From positions 1,426,001 to 1,490,000 of the forward strand of contig NZ_JBBKTT010000001.1 of NCBI RefSeq assembly GCF_037892425.1: a DNA stretch of 64,000 nt. The letters run 5' to 3'. The position numbers were made by a program, and so were the translations under genes. This document shows positions 26,040 through 33,706 of this stretch, piece after piece. Origin of the DNA: Lacibacter sp. H375 (GTDB lineage: Bacteria > Bacteroidota > Bacteroidia > Chitinophagales > Chitinophagaceae). Positions within the stretch are counted from its first letter, which is position 1, and every line of letters begins with the position of its first letter. The notes below the pieces were generated by a model. It saw nothing but the letters and a program-made list of their open reading frames with translations. It ran no database searches and was not told the DNA's origin.

Positions 26040-26065
26040 GGGGCAGCAAGAATCAACGCTGCCCC
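26040..26065 (-). terminator. Intrinsic terminator after the haloperoxidase operon
   Basis: GGGGCAGC (26040-26047) pairs with GCTGCCCC (26058-26065). On the minus strand the stem is followed by a TTTTTA run. It lies about 90 bp past the stop of the gene at 26153. Confidence 0.75.
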
Positions 26066-26152: not shown

Positions 26153-27472
26153 TTATTTTAAAAAGACAAGTTGATTGACACGGTTGCCTACTTTCATTCC
26201 TTGTTCCATGCCTGATACTGCTGTAAAATGATAATGAATACCACCAAGCACTCTTGACATGGCTGCTTCTTCAGCATATTTCTGAAATGATGCGTACACA
26301 CGTGTTCCATATTCAACATCATAAGTGCTATCGGTAAACATGTAATTGTTTCCAAACCTTGCTGCAAGAATCTGTGCTGCCGCAGATGAAATGACTGCAT
26401 GGTTAGATGCATATTCCGGATGTGGCGGTGTAGGAATAACCGGGTTCCAGTTCGTTTCTTCAAAAACTGCTCGTATGTAAGAAACCGGACGTAAAAGATT
26501 ATACTGGTATTTCGCTTTGAATGACGAGATCAATGCATCACTGTAAGCAATACCATGTTTGCAATAAAGAATGGCGGCATCATGCAGCGATAAATTTTTA
26601 CGAAGCACCAGCTGTGTTACAATATTGGTTGCATGTGTAGGTGCATTGTAGTTGCCTGGTATATCGCCCCAAAATTTTACTGTAACAGAATCGCTGCCGG
26701 ATAATTGTTTCGACAGATCAAACAAATGTTTCACCTCATTAAAGAAAGCACTTCCGGGTTGTGTTGAAAATGCAACAGGCGGCGCAGGTTGTGTTTCTGT
26801 AACAATGTTTTTGATAAAACTCCTGTTGTTGCCCCAGTACGGATGTAATGGCTTTCCAAATGCAGGTGGCGTTGGCACCCACATTCCCGCACCTGTAGGA
26901 GGTACGTAAGAAGCTGATGTGGTATTGTTATACGCTTCATGTCCACCATCTGTTTTTGACCAATCGAAAATGATTGTTGCAACCTGTTTGCCAAATGCTG
27001 TTGCAAGTTGTACTTCTTCAGCCGTTGCTTTGTTTTGAAAACGGTTGTTCCAATCATTTTCAAGAGAGTCAATTACTGTAACCATTGCTGCAGATGCGTT
27101 GCCAAATAATTTTTTGGTGATGCTTGCCATTGCTGCATTTGCACTAGCCGGCCAATAGTATTTCTTTTCATTTTGTATAGCAGGTATCGAAGGTGCATCG
27201 TTCAATTGCGGCATGATCGATTGTAAATTCTTGTTACCCTGTGCTACTGATTCATATAAAGCCAAACCGGCATATGCATAAGCACGTGTAGCTACAACAG
27301 AATTAAACCCGGGTGTTACTTTGGTCAAACGCAAATACAGGTTCATCCATGATGTGGCAACTTCTGAACTATATTGATTTTGCGTTTGAAAGGGGGTTGC
27401 TTTTTGACAGGCAACCAATACACTGAATATAGAAGTGTACAACAGGATGCCTTTAAAGATTGTTTTTTTCAT
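26153..27472 (-). CDS. Vanadium-dependent haloperoxidase-like lipoprotein
   Basis: A 439-residue protein with lipobox VLVAC (Cys near residue 20). The C-terminal half is the PAP2 / vanadium haloperoxidase fold: KYQYNLLRP (the K-x6-RP phosphate/vanadate motif) near 325, YASNHAVISSAAA (S-x-H) near 360, and SRVLGGIHYHFT (R-x4-GxH) near 408 with the vanadate-coordinating His. The Asp that usually follows this His by four residues is Thr here. Family members oxidise halides with hydrogen peroxide or act as phosphatases; which applies cannot be seen. It is the last gene of an apparent three-gene operon with a DUF3455 lipoprotein and a methyltransferase. Confidence 0.85.
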   Translation of the reverse strand: MKKTIFKGILLYTSIFSVLVACQKATPFQTQNQYSSEVATSWMNLYLRLTKVTPGFNSVVATRAYAYAGLALYESVAQGNKNLQSIMPQLNDAPSIPAIQNEKKYYWPASANAAMASITKKLFGNASAAMVTVIDSLENDWNNRFQNKATAEEVQLATAFGKQVATIIFDWSKTDGGHEAYNNTTSASYVPPTGAGMWVPTPPAFGKPLHPYWGNNRSFIKNIVTETQPAPPVAFSTQPGSAFFNEVKHLFDLSKQLSGSDSVTVKFWGDIPGNYNAPTHATNIVTQLVLRKNLSLHDAAILYCKHGIAYSDALISSFKAKYQYNLLRPVSYIRAVFEETNWNPVIPTPPHPEYASNHAVISSAAAQILAARFGNNYMFTDSTYDVEYGTRVYASFQKYAEEAAMSRVLGGIHYHFTAVSGMEQGMKVGNRVNQLVFLK

Positions 27473-27500
27473 GATTGTTTTTTTGATGTCAGGAAAGCGG

Positions 27501-28283
27501 TTACTTTTCTGCGATGAACAAGAGGAATCTGTTTTGAAGGAAAAAGATATCGTCAGTGATATGAAACGGTTTGAATGCCTGTTCAATCGTTTCTTCAACT
27601 GTTGCTTTGCTATGACTGTTCAATGCAATAGCTGCAGGACCTGTACCCATGAATGCTTCTACACCATGACGCAGATTACTGAACAGGAACGGACAAGGGA
27701 TGTTTGATTTATACAGCGGCTTCAGATCTGCATTGATAAATGCCTCTTCAATTCTTCCATCTTCAGAAAGTGCAAAAGGGCCGGGTTTGCCGGGAGGCGG
27801 AGGCGGTAATAATGAACCAATCGCTTTCAATACTTGTGTTGCTTCACTGTACTGCGGTTGATCCCAGATACCGATCACAATTCTTCCACCAGGTTTCAAT
27901 ACACGTGTTGCTTCTGCTAGTGCTTTTTCAAAACTGCCTGCATACTGAAAGGAGTTGAAGGCGGCTACTACATCAAAACTACTATCTTCAAAAGGGAGTG
28001 CTTCCAGATCTTCTTCTAAAAAATTGTTGTTTGGGTTACGTTGTCTTGCTACTTCAAGCAAGCCGGGTGCCGCATCTATGCCAATTACTTCGGCGCCTTC
28101 GTTCACAGCCATAGCCGTAAACATACCGGAGCCGCAGCCTGCATCAAGCAATAAATGATCTTCATTTAATTGCAATTGACGAAGTGCAGTTTTGTACATG
28201 GGCAGAAACCATGGTTCAAAATGTTGCGACCATTTCTGTGGAGCTACACTCCAAAGTTGTCCTTGAGTTGTTTTTGTACTCAT
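27501..28283 (-). CDS. Class I SAM-dependent methyltransferase
   Basis: A 260-residue soluble methyltransferase. Motif I LLDAGCGSGMFTAMAV is near residue 44, then VIGIDAAPGLLEVARQRN (SAM ribose-binding acid), the LEALPFEDSSFDVVAAFNSFQY region, and LKPGGRIVIGIWD, as in the Methyltransf_11 / UbiE group. The substrate is unknown. It lies between the DUF3455 gene (32 bp away) and the haloperoxidase-like gene (28 bp away) on the same strand, so all three are probably cotranscribed. Confidence 0.9.
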   Translation of the reverse strand: MSTKTTQGQLWSVAPQKWSQHFEPWFLPMYKTALRQLQLNEDHLLLDAGCGSGMFTAMAVNEGAEVIGIDAAPGLLEVARQRNPNNNFLEEDLEALPFEDSSFDVVAAFNSFQYAGSFEKALAEATRVLKPGGRIVIGIWDQPQYSEATQVLKAIGSLLPPPPPGKPGPFALSEDGRIEEAFINADLKPLYKSNIPCPFLFSNLRHGVEAFMGTGPAAIALNSHSKATVEETIEQAFKPFHITDDIFFLQNRFLLFIAEK

Positions 28284-28315
28284 TGTTGTAAGGTTTAAAG
28301 ATGAATATGTAATGA

Positions 28316-28918
28316 TTAATTTTTCTTGGTGAAACGATAGATAGCAGTGTAATAAACAACGGCTGTATCTGATAAACCTTGAGGCGCCGTTGCAGGTGCT
28401 TTGCCACCTTTTGTAGCAATGCGTTGTATGTATGCAATATTGCTGAAAACGCCGGTAGGAGTTGTGCCTGTTTTTGGCATCAACAAAAGCCAGGGAATAC
28501 TATTAGCATCAGGACTTGCTGTTTTAGCCGGAGTAAACTGTTGTGCAAAAATTGAATCGGCAGCACTAAGCGCCCAGTATGGCCCTGCACCATGTGTGCC
28601 GACTTTTTTATTTGTTACATCAAACAGGTCTGCTTGCGGTGCAACAAATACCCATTCATAAATACCAGTCTCACTACCTGCTTTTTGCTGGGCCTTATAC
28701 TTCTGTACACCCGTTGCATAATAAGTAGCGATCCGTGCATTTCCAAAAGGAGAATTAATAGGTAACTCTATTTCAGCGGGGATGGATAGTTTTTCACTTG
28801 CTTTAATTTGATAAGCCGGTGTAGTGCTGTTGATGGGTTCGTTTTTTTCACAAGCCAACATTGTGAAGATGAACAGCAGGGGCAACAGCATTGCTGTTGT
28901 GTTTTTTTTCTTTTTCAT
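28316..28918 (-). CDS. DUF3455 domain lipoprotein
   Basis: A 200-residue lipoprotein (lipobox MLAC near residue 23). The order GVQKYKAQ, YEWVFVAPQADLFD, KKVGTHGAGPYW, SIPWLLL, GVFSNIAYIQRIATKGGKAPA and AVVYYTAIYRF matches DUF3455 across its length. The function of DUF3455 is not known. It appears to be the first gene of the operon with the methyltransferase and the haloperoxidase-like lipoprotein. A minus-strand TATGTTTG octamer lies about 60 bp upstream. Confidence 0.85.
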   Translation of the reverse strand: MKKKKNTTAMLLPLLFIFTMLACEKNEPINSTTPAYQIKASEKLSIPAEIELPINSPFGNARIATYYATGVQKYKAQQKAGSETGIYEWVFVAPQADLFDVTNKKVGTHGAGPYWALSAADSIFAQQFTPAKTASPDANSIPWLLLMPKTGTTPTGVFSNIAYIQRIATKGGKAPATAPQGLSDTAVVYYTAIYRFTKKN

Positions 28919-29252
28919 TTTTAAGGTTTAATGGTTAATGCTGCTTTATTGCAACATGTAATTTCTAAATCGGGTACAAACATAGATCAGTAAATAAGTG
29001 CTGTTGAGCAGGAATGAATAAACGGCGCTGTAAAAACAATAGAAGAGCAGAAGCAACTGTGTAAATGGTTTTCTACAGTTGAAAGCTGTTTTGTTGATGA
29101 TTTTGAGTGGCTGAATTTTATTTTACTGTATTGTTTGAACCAACGGTTTGGCTATTGATACGAATGACGATGGCTGCTGAACAAACGGCGGCGATTGTAA
29201 TTCATCACGCTTAACCCCTTTCAATTTTCAGAATATGGATTTACCTTAGAAT
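28919..29252. other. Divergent intergenic region with a likely minus-strand promoter
   Basis: This 334 bp region separates two divergent transcripts. On the minus strand TATGTTTG (28984-28977) could be the -7 element for the DUF3455 operon, though no clear TTTG lies 20 nt upstream. On the plus strand TACCTTAG (29242-29249) lies 3 nt before the sensor kinase start codon. I see nothing else recognisable, and no ORF of note. Confidence 0.4.
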
Positions 29253-32200
29253 ATGCGTTGGCTCTCCCTTACTGTACGATATTTCTTCTTCGTTTTCTTA
29301 CTACTGCTTTACTCGGTTACAGCGGCACAATACCGTTCTTCTGATTTTACCCTTTATTCAATTGAAAACGGTCTTAGCAGTAACCTGCTTACAAGTATTG
29401 TACAGGATGAACAAGGTTATTTATGGATCGGCAGTGCAAACGGATTAAATCGTTTTGACGGCAACCAGTTTGTTCAATATCATCCAGGGAAAGAAAAGAA
29501 TTCTATCCCCGATGAAAATGTAAGGATGCTGAAATGGTTAGAACCCGGTAAAATGGCTGTTGCAACAAATACAGGTTTGCAGATAATTAATACACGAAAC
29601 AGGCAGTCAAGAAATTTGTTTATTCCCACAACATTCAAAGAATATGCGTTTAAATACAATGATGTGTTTGATGTTGCTGCTGATGATAAAAAACATGTTT
29701 TTATAGTTACCCGTTCCGGGTTTTATCATTTTGATAATAACGATAAATTGATCTTCCGATTTGATAATTATAAAACAGAGCAGGAGCAATCACAATATTT
29801 CATCTTCGGTCAGCTGTTATTATATTATTCGAAGAATGAATTGTTACTGTCAACAAGTGAAGGCATTTTTCTCTACAACATCAGCAAAAAACAATTAAAG
29901 AAAGCACAGAAGGGAAATGATCATGCTGTGCCTTTTGTGGCCGATATGCACCGTGATATTGCTACCGTAAGACAAGCAGATCATAAAGGGTATATGATCT
30001 TCAAAACAAATTCAGATAGCATTATTTATGTCAACACTTCTTCAAAAGATGGAATTGTTTCAAAAGCACCAAACAAAAACATCAACAGTGAATTTAACTG
30101 GCGCACAAGTCTTTTCCGCTATAACGATTCTACTTATTTTGTTACTTCCAGTACAAATGGTTTTTATAAAATAATCCATCAGCCAAAAACGGGAAAGCTT
30201 ACGTTGTATACTGAAAAATATTTGGCTGATTATTTCTGCGCCGGTTTTTTAAAAGATAAAGAAGGAAGATTGTGGGTCACCACAAGTTCGGGCTTGTTAA
30301 AGCAAAACATGATCAACAACTCTGTGACATTTAAATTGCTACCGCAGGAAATTTTGCAGCAAGCACCTGCCGCTACCATCAGTTATGTGTTTGTTTCCGG
30401 AGACAAAATATTTATCGGATGCAGGAGAGAGGGCGGGTTGTTGGTGTTTGAGAAAAGCACGCTCAACTTTATTCGTAGAATAAGGTTCAAAAAACACGGA
30501 ACTATTTCTGACGATATTATCAATGTATCATATCCAGGCGGGGATACATTATTCATTGGCACAAATGGTCCGTTGTGTTGGCTCAACATGAAAACCTATG
30601 AAACAGGTGTGTGCAAGTTGGAGAAATGGGTAAATACAAATTGGGTTTCTTCACAGTTTAAAGATCGTGCCGGCAACATCTGGGTTACAAGTAACGCTAA
30701 CAGGGTTTATTATTACAACAGCAGGCAAAAGAAGTTTTATTTAAAGGATATGGCTCATCCATATATGACTAAGCTTCTCATAACAAATATGATCACAGAA
30801 GATACAGCAGGTCACATATGGTTTGCAGGACAGGGACTTTGTCGCATTAACCGGCTAACTCATCGACCGGATTTTTTTATTGACACGTTCCCGGAAATTC
30901 TTTTTCCACGCAAAGCAGTATTGGGTTTGTATTGCGACGATAAGAATAGATTATGGTTTGGTAATGTCAGTAACGGATTGGTGAGTTATTCCATTAGCGA
31001 AAAGAAATTTGAACACTACACTACAGAAAACAAACTTCCTTCCAATAATATTTATACAACAGGCATCTACAATAACATGTTGTGGATGGGTTCTGAAACA
31101 GGCATTGCAGGCCTTGATCTCGTTACAAAACAAATCTCTTCCTTTGATAAAGATGATGGTTTCCCTTTGCAGGCTGTTACATCTGTAAATTTTTATCATG
31201 ATAAAGAGGCCAACTATCTCTATTCAGGTTTTGGTACTGCTATTGTAAAATTTTGTGCAGATAGCTTGTTGTACACCACCGCACCACCGAAAGTATTTAT
31301 TGAAAGTATCCGTTTTAATAATGATTCAAGCGTTTATTTACCGGGCTCATCATTAATAACTGATTACAATCATAACGACTTTACGGTTAAGATCGGCAGC
31401 GTTTATTTTTATAAGAAGGTTAGCAACTATTTGCTCAGCTACCGGATAGTAAATTCGCATGACAGCAGTTGGAAAACCATCACCGGCTCTGAAGTAAATT
31501 TCAACAACCTGCCTCCCGGTACTTACAAGTTTGAAATAAGAATGACAGCAAAAAATGAACGCTGGCCAGCGCAGGTAAAGCAATTCAATTTAACGGTGAA
31601 ACCTCCTTTTTGGAAAACAGGTTGGTTTATTACAATCATAACCGTACTCATCTTGTTCCTGGGTTACCTTTTCTATCGCTGGAGAATTTATTATATCCGT
31701 AAAGCTGAAAGTGAAAAAGCACGAGTGCAGGAGCTGCGTGCTGAAAAGTATAAAACCCAGTATGAGCTGGAGCAGATCAGTAATTATTTTTCATTATCTC
31801 TTACTGATAAGAAGACTACTGACGATGTGTTGTGGGATGTTGCAAAAAACCTGATCGGCCGAATGGGTTGCGAAGACTGTATGATCTATTTATGGAACAA
31901 AGACAAAACAAAAATGCAGCAACGTGCGGGTTATGGAAATAAAAATTCACCTGAGAAGCTTACTGAACATTTGTTTGAAGTGGAAATGGGTCAGGGTGTG
32001 GTTGGTTATGTAATGCAAACAAAAGAACCGGTGATCATTGCTGATACAAGAACCGACAAACGTTACAGGGTAGATGATATGCATCGCCTCAGTGAAATTT
32101 GTGTTCCCATTATCCATGAAGGCGAGTTGATGGGCATTATTGATTCAGAAAACAGCAAACTAAATTATTTTCAGGAACGTGATCTTCAAATAATGACCAC

Positions 32201-32942
32201 TATCGCCACACTCACAGGTAATAAAATAAAACAGGTAGAAAGTGAGCAGGTATTGAATGTGAAGAAAAAAGAACTTGCTGCAACGAACGAACATTTAGCA
32301 GAAGCACAACTCTCAGCATTGCAGGCGCAAATGAATCCGCATTTTGTATTTAATGCACTCAATAGCATTAAGCGTTTGATATTGGATGATGAGAAAGATA
32401 AAGCATCCCGTTACCTCAGCAAGTTTGCGCAACTCATTCGCTTAACATTGAATCACTCACGTGAAACGTTTGTAACACTTCGTGAAAATGTGGAGTATCT
32501 CAACACATACCTTGAAATGGAGCAGTTGCGTTTTAAAGATTCGTTTAATGCCACAGTTAAAGTTGATGCTGCCATTGATGATGAGGAAGTAGTTGTTCCG
32601 TCACTTATGATACAACCATTGGTGGAGAATGCTGTGTGGCATGGCCTGCTTCACAAAGAAGGAAAGAAAAAAATTACGGTTCGCTTCTCAGCCAACGGGC
32701 CATACATTATTTGTTCTATTGAAGATAATGGAATTGGAATACGTCGTTCCGAAGCCAATAAAAACGTACAGCATGCAACGCACAAATCAGTTGGGCTTGA
32801 TAACCTGCGCAACCGTATTGCTATTATGAATGAAAAATTTGATATGGACTGCAGTCTCACCATTACTGATCTAAATGAAACAGATGCAACAATTACCGGC
32901 ACGCTGGCGGTATTAAAATTTAAAAACAGAGATCTTGTATGA
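29253..32942 (+). CDS. Propeller sensor histidine kinase, LytS type, with GAF domain
   Basis: A 1229-residue inner-membrane sensor. A signal peptide (1-25) leads to a large periplasmic part with two-component-regulator propeller repeats (for example LTSIVQDEQGYLWIGSANGLNRFDG near 45), ending in a Y_Y_Y domain (about 705-775, LPPGTYKFEIRM). One membrane helix follows near 790-812 and a short coiled coil. A GAF domain spans about 850-990, and the LytS/His_kinase core starts with LQAQMNPHFVFNALNSIKRL near 1025, with His in NPHF. The HATPase N-box MIQPLVENAVWHGL is near 1120. It overlaps its response regulator gene by 4 bp. Confidence 0.92.
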   Translation: MRWLSLTVRYFFFVFLLLLYSVTAAQYRSSDFTLYSIENGLSSNLLTSIVQDEQGYLWIGSANGLNRFDGNQFVQYHPGKEKNSIPDENVRMLKWLEPGKMAVATNTGLQIINTRNRQSRNLFIPTTFKEYAFKYNDVFDVAADDKKHVFIVTRSGFYHFDNNDKLIFRFDNYKTEQEQSQYFIFGQLLLYYSKNELLLSTSEGIFLYNISKKQLKKAQKGNDHAVPFVADMHRDIATVRQADHKGYMIFKTNSDSIIYVNTSSKDGIVSKAPNKNINSEFNWRTSLFRYNDSTYFVTSSTNGFYKIIHQPKTGKLTLYTEKYLADYFCAGFLKDKEGRLWVTTSSGLLKQNMINNSVTFKLLPQEILQQAPAATISYVFVSGDKIFIGCRREGGLLVFEKSTLNFIRRIRFKKHGTISDDIINVSYPGGDTLFIGTNGPLCWLNMKTYETGVCKLEKWVNTNWVSSQFKDRAGNIWVTSNANRVYYYNSRQKKFYLKDMAHPYMTKLLITNMITEDTAGHIWFAGQGLCRINRLTHRPDFFIDTFPEILFPRKAVLGLYCDDKNRLWFGNVSNGLVSYSISEKKFEHYTTENKLPSNNIYTTGIYNNMLWMGSETGIAGLDLVTKQISSFDKDDGFPLQAVTSVNFYHDKEANYLYSGFGTAIVKFCADSLLYTTAPPKVFIESIRFNNDSSVYLPGSSLITDYNHNDFTVKIGSVYFYKKVSNYLLSYRIVNSHDSSWKTITGSEVNFNNLPPGTYKFEIRMTAKNERWPAQVKQFNLTVKPPFWKTGWFITIITVLILFLGYLFYRWRIYYIRKAESEKARVQELRAEKYKTQYELEQISNYFSLSLTDKKTTDDVLWDVAKNLIGRMGCEDCMIYLWNKDKTKMQQRAGYGNKNSPEKLTEHLFEVEMGQGVVGYVMQTKEPVIIADTRTDKRYRVDDMHRLSEICVPIIHEGELMGIIDSENSKLNYFQERDLQIMTTIATLTGNKIKQVESEQVLNVKKKELAATNEHLAEAQLSALQAQMNPHFVFNALNSIKRLILDDEKDKASRYLSKFAQLIRLTLNHSRETFVTLRENVEYLNTYLEMEQLRFKDSFNATVKVDAAIDDEEVVVPSLMIQPLVENAVWHGLLHKEGKKKITVRFSANGPYIICSIEDNGIGIRRSEANKNVQHATHKSVGLDNLRNRIAIMNEKFDMDCSLTITDLNETDATITGTLAVLKFKNRDLV

Positions 32943-33706
32943 AACAGTTACGTGTAATATTAGTAGACGATGAGGCAGACGGCGTTGCCACGTTAAGCCA
33001 ATTGCTTCGGTTGAATTGTCCCGAAGTGGAGATCATTGCCACTTGCAACAATGCAGAAACAGCCACACAACAGATACTGGCATTGCAACCCGATGTTGTG
33101 TTCTTAGATATTCAAATGCCCGGCAAAAGCGGTATTGAAATGTTGGCCGATATGCAGGAACGAAAGTTTGAAATCATTTTTGTAACAGCACACAATGAAT
33201 ACATGTTGCAGGCGCTGCAGTTCAGTGCTGCAGATTATTTATTGAAGCCGGTTGATGAAGACCGTTTAATTGAAGCGGTGAATCGTGTGAAAGAGCGTAT
33301 TGAACAAAAAACAGAACCAGATAATATTGATGTGTTGCTGCACAACCTGCAAAAAAATAATCGTCAGCAGGAAATGAAACTCGCTGTTCCCACACTCAAA
33401 GGTTTTTCTGTACTAAAGCTGGAAGAAATCGTAGTGTGTGAAGCGGAAAAAAATTACACCATCTTTCATTTGCAGAATAAAAAAACAATTACTGTATCAC
33501 GCACATTACTGGAATATGAAAAAATTCTTCAGAATACTTCATTCTTCAGGGTGCATAAAACATTTATGATAAATCTTGAGCATGTAGTGGAATATCAGCG
33601 TGGAGAAGGGGGAGTGGTGGTAATGGCTAATGGAATGGAAGTGGAAGTGAGTCGCAGAAAAAAGGAAGAGTTTATGAATAAGATAAAAGAGGTGTTTAAG
33701 TATTAA
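32939..33706 (+). CDS. LytTR-family response regulator
   Basis: A 255-residue response regulator. Residues 1-125 are a receiver domain (ILVDDEADG, VVFLDIQMPGKSG with the phospho-acceptor Asp near 58, FVTAHNEYMLQA, DYLLKPVDE). Residues 150-250 are a LytTR DNA-binding domain (ICEAEKNYT-like VCEAEKNYTIFHL, FFRVHKTFMINLEHV). The start codon overlaps the stop of the sensor kinase gene (ATGA), so translation is coupled and the pair is a cognate two-component system. Target genes are not identified here. Confidence 0.94.
   Translation: MKQLRVILVDDEADGVATLSQLLRLNCPEVEIIATCNNAETATQQILALQPDVVFLDIQMPGKSGIEMLADMQERKFEIIFVTAHNEYMLQALQFSAADYLLKPVDEDRLIEAVNRVKERIEQKTEPDNIDVLLHNLQKNNRQQEMKLAVPTLKGFSVLKLEEIVVCEAEKNYTIFHLQNKKTITVSRTLLEYEKILQNTSFFRVHKTFMINLEHVVEYQRGEGGVVVMANGMEVEVSRRKKEEFMNKIKEVFKY

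Follow-up and report, generated by a model that had tools for sequence, protein, structure and literature searches.

To our knowledge, little has been established about the physiological role that bacterial vanadium haloperoxidases play away from marine settings and natural-product clusters, and DUF3455 has mostly been found as an uncharacterised secreted domain. The closest described systems are the iodoperoxidase of Zobellia galactanivorans (4CIT/4USZ), the Streptomyces proteins NapH3 and NapH1 and, on the regulatory side, the LytS-type kinases with their LytTR regulators. We analysed a stretch of 64,000 nucleotides of Lacibacter sp. H375 (contig NZ_JBBKTT010000001.1, positions 1,426,001 to 1,490,000; hereafter the window), in which an operon for a DUF3455 lipoprotein, a methyltransferase (MT) and a haloperoxidase-like lipoprotein (HPO) diverges from the genes of a histidine kinase and a LytTR regulator, both upstream of it. 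The HPO resembles the Zobellia enzyme in its whole fold, in the residues K, R, S, H, R and H and in having no Asp four residues after the last His (position +4). It differs in carrying S-N-H instead of S-G-H at motif 2, in lying outside the 4CIT branch and in adjoining a kinase and a LytTR regulator. With NapH3 and NapH1 it shares the fold (Z around 34), the H-P-E-Y ahead of motif 2 and an altered motif 2; identity is 15-18%, and, unlike these proteins as aligned, it keeps the motif-2 His. Kinase and regulator follow the LytS-type scheme (PF06580; Response_reg and LytTR; 21-bp direct repeats in orthologous loci). However, the window kinase has a large propeller sensor that the usual LytS-type kinase lacks, and the two functions are encoded by two genes, unlike the one-protein hybrid two-component systems of Bacteroides. 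We lean, if only slightly, towards the view that the locus is a signal-induced extracytoplasmic oxidation module whose sensor has been changed repeatedly.

The three-gene operon was confirmed. On the minus strand, the genes of the DUF3455 lipoprotein (28316-28918, 200 aa, P0003), the MT (27501-28283, a class I S-adenosylmethionine (SAM)-dependent methyltransferase of 260 aa, P0002) and the HPO (26153-27472, 439 aa, P0001) are separated by gaps of 32 and 28 bp. These values agree with the gaps of about 30 bp given in an earlier note made from the sequence alone, which had also assigned the protein classes correctly (two lipoproteins and one methyltransferase), as judged by Pfam and by the likeness to 4CIT. 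The longest open reading frame of the HPO begins at a TTG at 27598; we set the start at the ATG at 27472 because the lipoprotein signal peptide, read from the sequence, begins there.

By sequence and by predicted structure, the HPO is clearly a haloperoxidase relative. Its Pfam matches both fall just below the cut-offs (PF01569, PAP2, best match, E 1.5e-5, 25.2 bits against 27.2; PF22778, 25.4 bits against 27); the assignment holds despite this because its closest solved relative by sequence, the Zobellia vanadium iodoperoxidase 4CIT, matches at E 4.4e-56 and its model (pLDDT 92.4, pTM 0.89, 37 sequences) superposes on 4CIT with Z 51.4 and a root-mean-square deviation of 2.1 A over 390 residues (31% identity). 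In the whole-model comparison the predicted structure contains the two-bundle fold of 4CIT; the next family members follow at Z 32-35 and the acid phosphatases at about 13. This ranking bears on a rival reading, in which the HPO would be secreted and act as a PAP2-type acid phosphatase, or bind phosphate, with no peroxidase activity, in an operon that scavenges phosphate or phospho-esters. PAP2 is indeed the top Pfam match, acid phosphatases match the C-terminal half of the protein, the Gly of S-G-H is missing and phosphatase activity is reported for the Curvularia enzyme in PMC4859513. Against this stand the complete two-bundle haloperoxidase fold, with 4CIT far ahead of the phosphatases, and a PAP2 score under its curated cut-off; the six vanadate residues are the haloperoxidase set, but phosphatases share most of them and the sequence is not decisive. 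We regard the phosphatase reading as improbable, yet deserving some weight.

The residues listed in PMC10278073 as holding vanadate in the Curvularia enzyme are Lys353, Arg360, Ser402, His404, Arg490 and His496. All six have aligned counterparts in the HPO (K321, R328, S356, H358, R407 and H413), and the motifs KYQYNLLRP, SNH (S356-N357-H358) and RVLGGIH read earlier as vanadate motifs are present. In a tree of 92 HPO rows, taken among the matches listed down to about E 1e-50, the window protein falls inside clade A (n=53, support 93), apart from 4CIT, which is the 92nd row and has no locus. Two partial hits at contig ends (G158:C77, G095:C624) and L115 (internal stop, length filter) are left out of these rows. 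K353, R360, R490 and H496 (Curvularia numbering) are conserved in 53/53 clade-A rows and H404 in 49/53. The HPO has Thr417 at +4, where the earlier note held Asp to be usual; this did not stand, since Ser is the commonest residue (clade A: Ser 29, Asp 11, Thr 9, Ala 4; the 38 other rows: Ser 19, Asp 12, Ala 5, Thr 1, Gly 1). An Asp-to-Thr change as a mark of lost function was rejected because the position varies and is Ala in 4CIT. On these alignments the Thr is unremarkable, and the odder change is that of S-G-H to S-N-H, in which Asn357 replaces Gly. This Gly is present in 23/53 clade-A rows versus 37/38 others; we did not treat it as defining, and the residue list of PMC10278073 contains no Gly. 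The Ser-Gly pair is intact in 20/53 clade-A rows and altered in 33/53, whereas in the other 38 rows the Gly is changed once and the Ser five times. As a separate observation, the motif-2 His is replaced by Leu (S-G-L) in four clade-A HPOs (L106_9, L117_6, L127_8, L128_8) and in L243_6 from another family, which recalls NapH3 and NapH1, likewise without this His.

Nothing in the context is better supported than the divergent kinase and LytTR regulator, which the earlier note does not mention. The kinase (29253..32942, plus strand, 1229 aa) carries Reg_prop, Y_Y_Y, GAF and His_kinase (PF06580, 85.7 bits), and the regulator (32939..33706, plus strand, 255 aa) Response_reg (PF00072, 82.8 bits) and LytTR (PF04397, 66.8 bits). 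A LytTR regulator lies within 5 kb of 17/53 clade-A HPOs versus 2.5 expected (P 2e-10), the expected counts coming from the per-genome LytTR density and the numbers being first-look candidates and an upper bound. When nine near relatives were dropped, 11/44 were found versus 2.1 expected (P 5e-6). No LytTR regulator was found within 5 kb of the other 39 rows, which count the fragment L120_5 that is absent from the tree (1.8 expected). A kinase and/or regulator is within 5 kb of 22/53 clade-A HPOs versus 0/38 other tree rows, and the kinase is directly upstream and divergent in 17/53, by a pattern that tolerates an intervening gene.

This linkage requires at least seven changes on supported branches of the HPO tree. 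The 21 regulators within 7 kb of an HPO belong to separate lineages: 12 go with short LytS-type kinases (support 96/98), four with TPR kinases (100/99), four with propeller kinases, and one is of another kind. Regulator kinds differ between the sister HPOs L097 and L108 (100*), and the window HPO likewise differs in this from its sisters, L090 and L091. Common descent alone hardly accounts for such repeated linkage to varied sensors, which gives the HPO the look of an output. In a converse arrangement the HPO would act upstream, the adjacent kinase taking its signal from the HPO product or from the lipoprotein itself. The close, recurrent kinase linkage and the divergent layout, which is compatible with feedback, agree with this arrangement; the three unrelated sensor parts of the linked kinases (propeller, TPR, short membrane) fit a common output better, and we consider an upstream role very unlikely.

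Each operon protein was searched against 195 genomes of the family, giving matches for HPO in 103, for MT (E <= 1e-30) in 15 and for DUF3455 in 10. The gene-order conservation proposed as a check in the earlier note was borne out in part. The exact order of the window was found in none of the loci fetched from the other genomes of the 195, and the two other species of the genus in this set gave no match to DUF3455 (E <= 0.001) or MT (E <= 1e-30). In G172, however, MT, HPO and DUF3455 lie side by side in a permuted order, divergent from an orthologous kinase/regulator pair, so that the five-part set recurs although DUF3455 matches so few genomes. The MT is within 1 kb of an HPO in 5/10 genomes having MT at E <= 1e-60, with 0.04 expected. 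Partial sets were also found: kinase/regulator, MT, one gene and then HPO in G158; kinase/regulator, two genes and HPO, plus another methyltransferase, in G175; and DUF3455 adjoining the kinase/regulator with no HPO at the locus in G077. These permuted and partial sets, together with the MT-HPO proximity, indicate that the parts of the operon belong together without a fixed order. The order AraC-MT-HPO occurs in G027 and G008, and MT relatives often adjoin an AraC gene with no HPO; the MT-HPO tie is therefore optional. An AraC-type gene lies directly ahead of MT, with or without HPO, at L071, L072 and L075-L079. A three-gene order conserved across the phylum was rejected: in a set of 395 genomes, in which 15 of the listed rows come from the same family, DUF3455 was matched in one, the genome of the window itself.

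These neighbourhoods also bear on whether the linkage is incidental, regulators often adjoining lipoprotein genes and the three genes having been assembled by chance. The exact order is not conserved and most divergent genes at the loci of orthologous regulators are not HPO, which agrees with an incidental linkage. On the other hand, the LytTR excess over the genome-wide density, with none at other HPOs of the same genomes, the repetition of the linkage in separate regulator lineages and the recurrence of the full set in G172 make a chance assembly quite unlikely.

A candidate operator was sought in the stretch before the kinase. An orthologous regulator is present in eleven genomes (E < 1e-97), and at 8/10 of the other loci a 12-bp motif like TTTCCNANCGG occurs as two copies spaced 21 bp (20 bp at one locus), in a repeat model that forces one pair per sequence and whose seed was selected by visual inspection of these very sequences; the L214 stretch was of insufficient length, and none was found in L216. 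Published LytTR direct repeats are described in PMC6193735 as mostly 12 bp apart, and this spacing plus a 9-bp repeat gives the period of 21 bp. A canonical -7 box is found on the divergent strand in 4/8 repeat loci, the repeat starting 37-38 nt from the box, which would be the fixed position expected for an activator of the divergent gene. In the window, TATGTTTG (28977..28984, minus strand), 59 bp ahead of the first start codon of the operon, is a Bacteroidetes-type -7 box, by the consensus TAnnTTTG. At the first-repeat position of the orthologous loci relative to the box stands a possible degenerate LytTR half-site, TGAATAAACGG (29015..29025, plus strand), and TGAATAAACGGC is at the matching 38-nt position from the box, with a low score. 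Two further possible half-sites on the plus strand, TGAACCAACGG (29136..29146) and TGAACAAACGG (29178..29188), are 42 bp apart. The pattern TGAANNAACGG, picked after inspection of the sequence, has three copies in the 334-bp intergenic stretch and 108 in 5.08 Mb, the reversed control giving 82. Among the eleven orthologues, the one in the window branches outermost in the regulator tree, which makes it plausible that the window operator is a drifted site.

In the mechanism that we propose, the periplasmic propeller/Y_Y_Y part of the kinase would detect an external ligand, and the kinase would phosphorylate the LytTR regulator, which would activate the divergent operon from sites between kinase and operon. 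Since HPO genes of this kind lie beside sensor-regulator pairs in related bacteria well above the chance level, a signal from outside probably induces them. The HPO-fold lipoprotein would bind vanadate (or phosphate) via K321, R328, S356, H358, R407 and H413, the DUF3455 lipoprotein would probably have a barrel that accommodates a small molecule of hydrophobic or aromatic nature, and the MT would act in the cytoplasm as a small-molecule SAM methyltransferase. We infer the activation by the regulator, the joint work of the three proteins and their chemistry. Our first guess is that the HPO may work as a peroxidase, with H2O2 and either a halide (iodide or bromide) or an organic substrate.

Several observations weigh against such a regulated module. 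No kinase or regulator is within 5 kb of 31/53 clade-A HPOs (some at contig ends); L037, with the most identical HPO among the named genomes (51%), has an AraC gene and no kinase/regulator pair; and just 4/11 orthologous regulators adjoin an HPO, the rest facing different genes. By the repeat model, the kinase-operon stretch of the window has no significant repeat pair: the best pairs at 18-24 bp spacing score 2.3 (kinase strand) and 4.2 (opposite strand), and the best at 42 bp scores 6.5, the 95% level of shuffles being 7.6. The half-site at 29015 is outside the eight best single sites of this model. A generic LytTR-repeat scan of 22 HPO promoters gave 19 pairs versus 6.9 expected, nine of them from one locus, and a motif search in the short-LytS group, in which the start codons used were wrong for several rows, gave no clear site. 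Finally, Ser-Gly is altered in 21/22 clade-A HPOs beside a kinase/regulator versus 12/31 others (Fisher P 3e-5), yet on the tree this tie comes down to 2-3 independent pairs that are informative, without reaching significance; it was not retained as a finding.

The same tie bears on the possibility that the HPO has no halide oxidation and carries out redox-free or organic chemistry like NapH3, changes of S-x-H marking the loss. The high share of altered motifs in clade A, above all beside kinase/regulator genes, would fit such a loss, and NapH3 is presented in its structure title (8CXL) as a haloperoxidase homologue catalysing a rearrangement. Among 50 HPO rows taken from the phylum beyond this family (L260 gave none), Ser-Gly is altered in five, two of which (L233; L043, Spirosoma) adjoin two short kinases and a LytTR regulator, versus no kinase at the 45 unaltered rows, two of which (L234, L243) have a regulator alone; the direction agrees with the tie, and the numbers are small. 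The lack of significance on the tree argues against the loss, as does the window HPO itself, which keeps Ser and His and has Gly as its sole motif-2 change. We find this explanation rather unlikely.

The MT scores 92.4 bits with Methyltransf_11 (cut-off 21.2) and is a UbiE/BioC-like class I enzyme, under every NCBIfam cut-off shown. TPMT, the halide/thiol type, is absent from the 22 Pfam families matching it at E <= 1, and methyl-halide production by the MT was rejected on this ground; a methylation-halide link, thought possible in the earlier note, receives no direct support. The MT tree was poorly resolved and gave no firm history. The DUF3455 lipoprotein is like its family in scoring above the cut-off of PF11937 (72.8 bits against 25), and its AlphaFold2 model is mainly beta (pLDDT 87.5, pTM 0.79, nine sequences). 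Foldseek gave no match for this model at E <= 0.001. A structural ranking, weak since Z values of 7-8 are the usual best for models without a true match, retrieved Diels-Alderases, a pyocyanin demethylase, dirigent proteins and allene oxide cyclase at Z 6.5-8.8 (PloI4 8.8, pyocyanin demethylase 5K21 8.0, AbyU 7.8, dirigent DRR206 7.7). From the model, a small-molecule-binding barrel of the allene-oxide-cyclase/dirigent type is a fair guess. Dirigent proteins act on radicals generated by oxidases, and a dirigent-like DUF3455 would, by this analogy, suit a peroxidase partner. No published function of DUF3455 was found in a literature mostly judged by titles; its induction on soybean roots is reported in PMC7725335. 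A haloperoxidase beside a LytTR two-component system was not found in the literature either, partly judged by title alone.

A wider reading joins these parts: the branch of HPO-fold lipoproteins of Bacteroidota without the S-G-H cradle would be the standard output of interchangeable LytTR sensors, that is, signal-gated surface enzymes with a chemistry unlike that of the known iodo-, bromo- and chloroperoxidases. In the window, the enzyme would act on a substrate that the DUF3455 protein holds in a dirigent-like barrel, and it would be linked to the methyltransferase. Taken as a whole, we put this forward as a speculative and rather long-shot proposal. If the haloperoxidase genes are coupled to particular sensor-regulator pairs, ordinary reporter work could reveal the signal that induces them, and then the substrate; DUF3455 would also gain its first biochemical context.

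Further features of the window and its relatives were recorded. A terminator-like hairpin lies 3′ of HPO (26040..26065, minus strand), from a scan that gave six terminator-like sites versus 3.4 in shuffles. The G+C of the operon (0.416, versus a window mean of 0.400, standard deviation 0.013) was not telling, and recent foreign DNA was rejected. An inverted repeat, CAACTGT-N14-ACAGTTG, was spotted by eye in the intergenic stretch at about 29055-29085. In a distant group, two same-strand HPO genes often flank two others (HPO-x-x-HPO) with no kinase/regulator nearby (L105, L145, L146, L149, L150, L151, L153, L156, L164, L167). Two tandem short LytS-type kinases and one LytTR regulator adjoin HPO at L095, L108, L121, L144, L043 and L233. 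The genome of the window has seven matches to HPO relatives, two of them parts of one gene; relatives lie on C1 at 1745170, 1828843, 1077572, 1073887 and 769416, and the one at 1828843 likewise has a LytTR regulator and a short kinase next to it.

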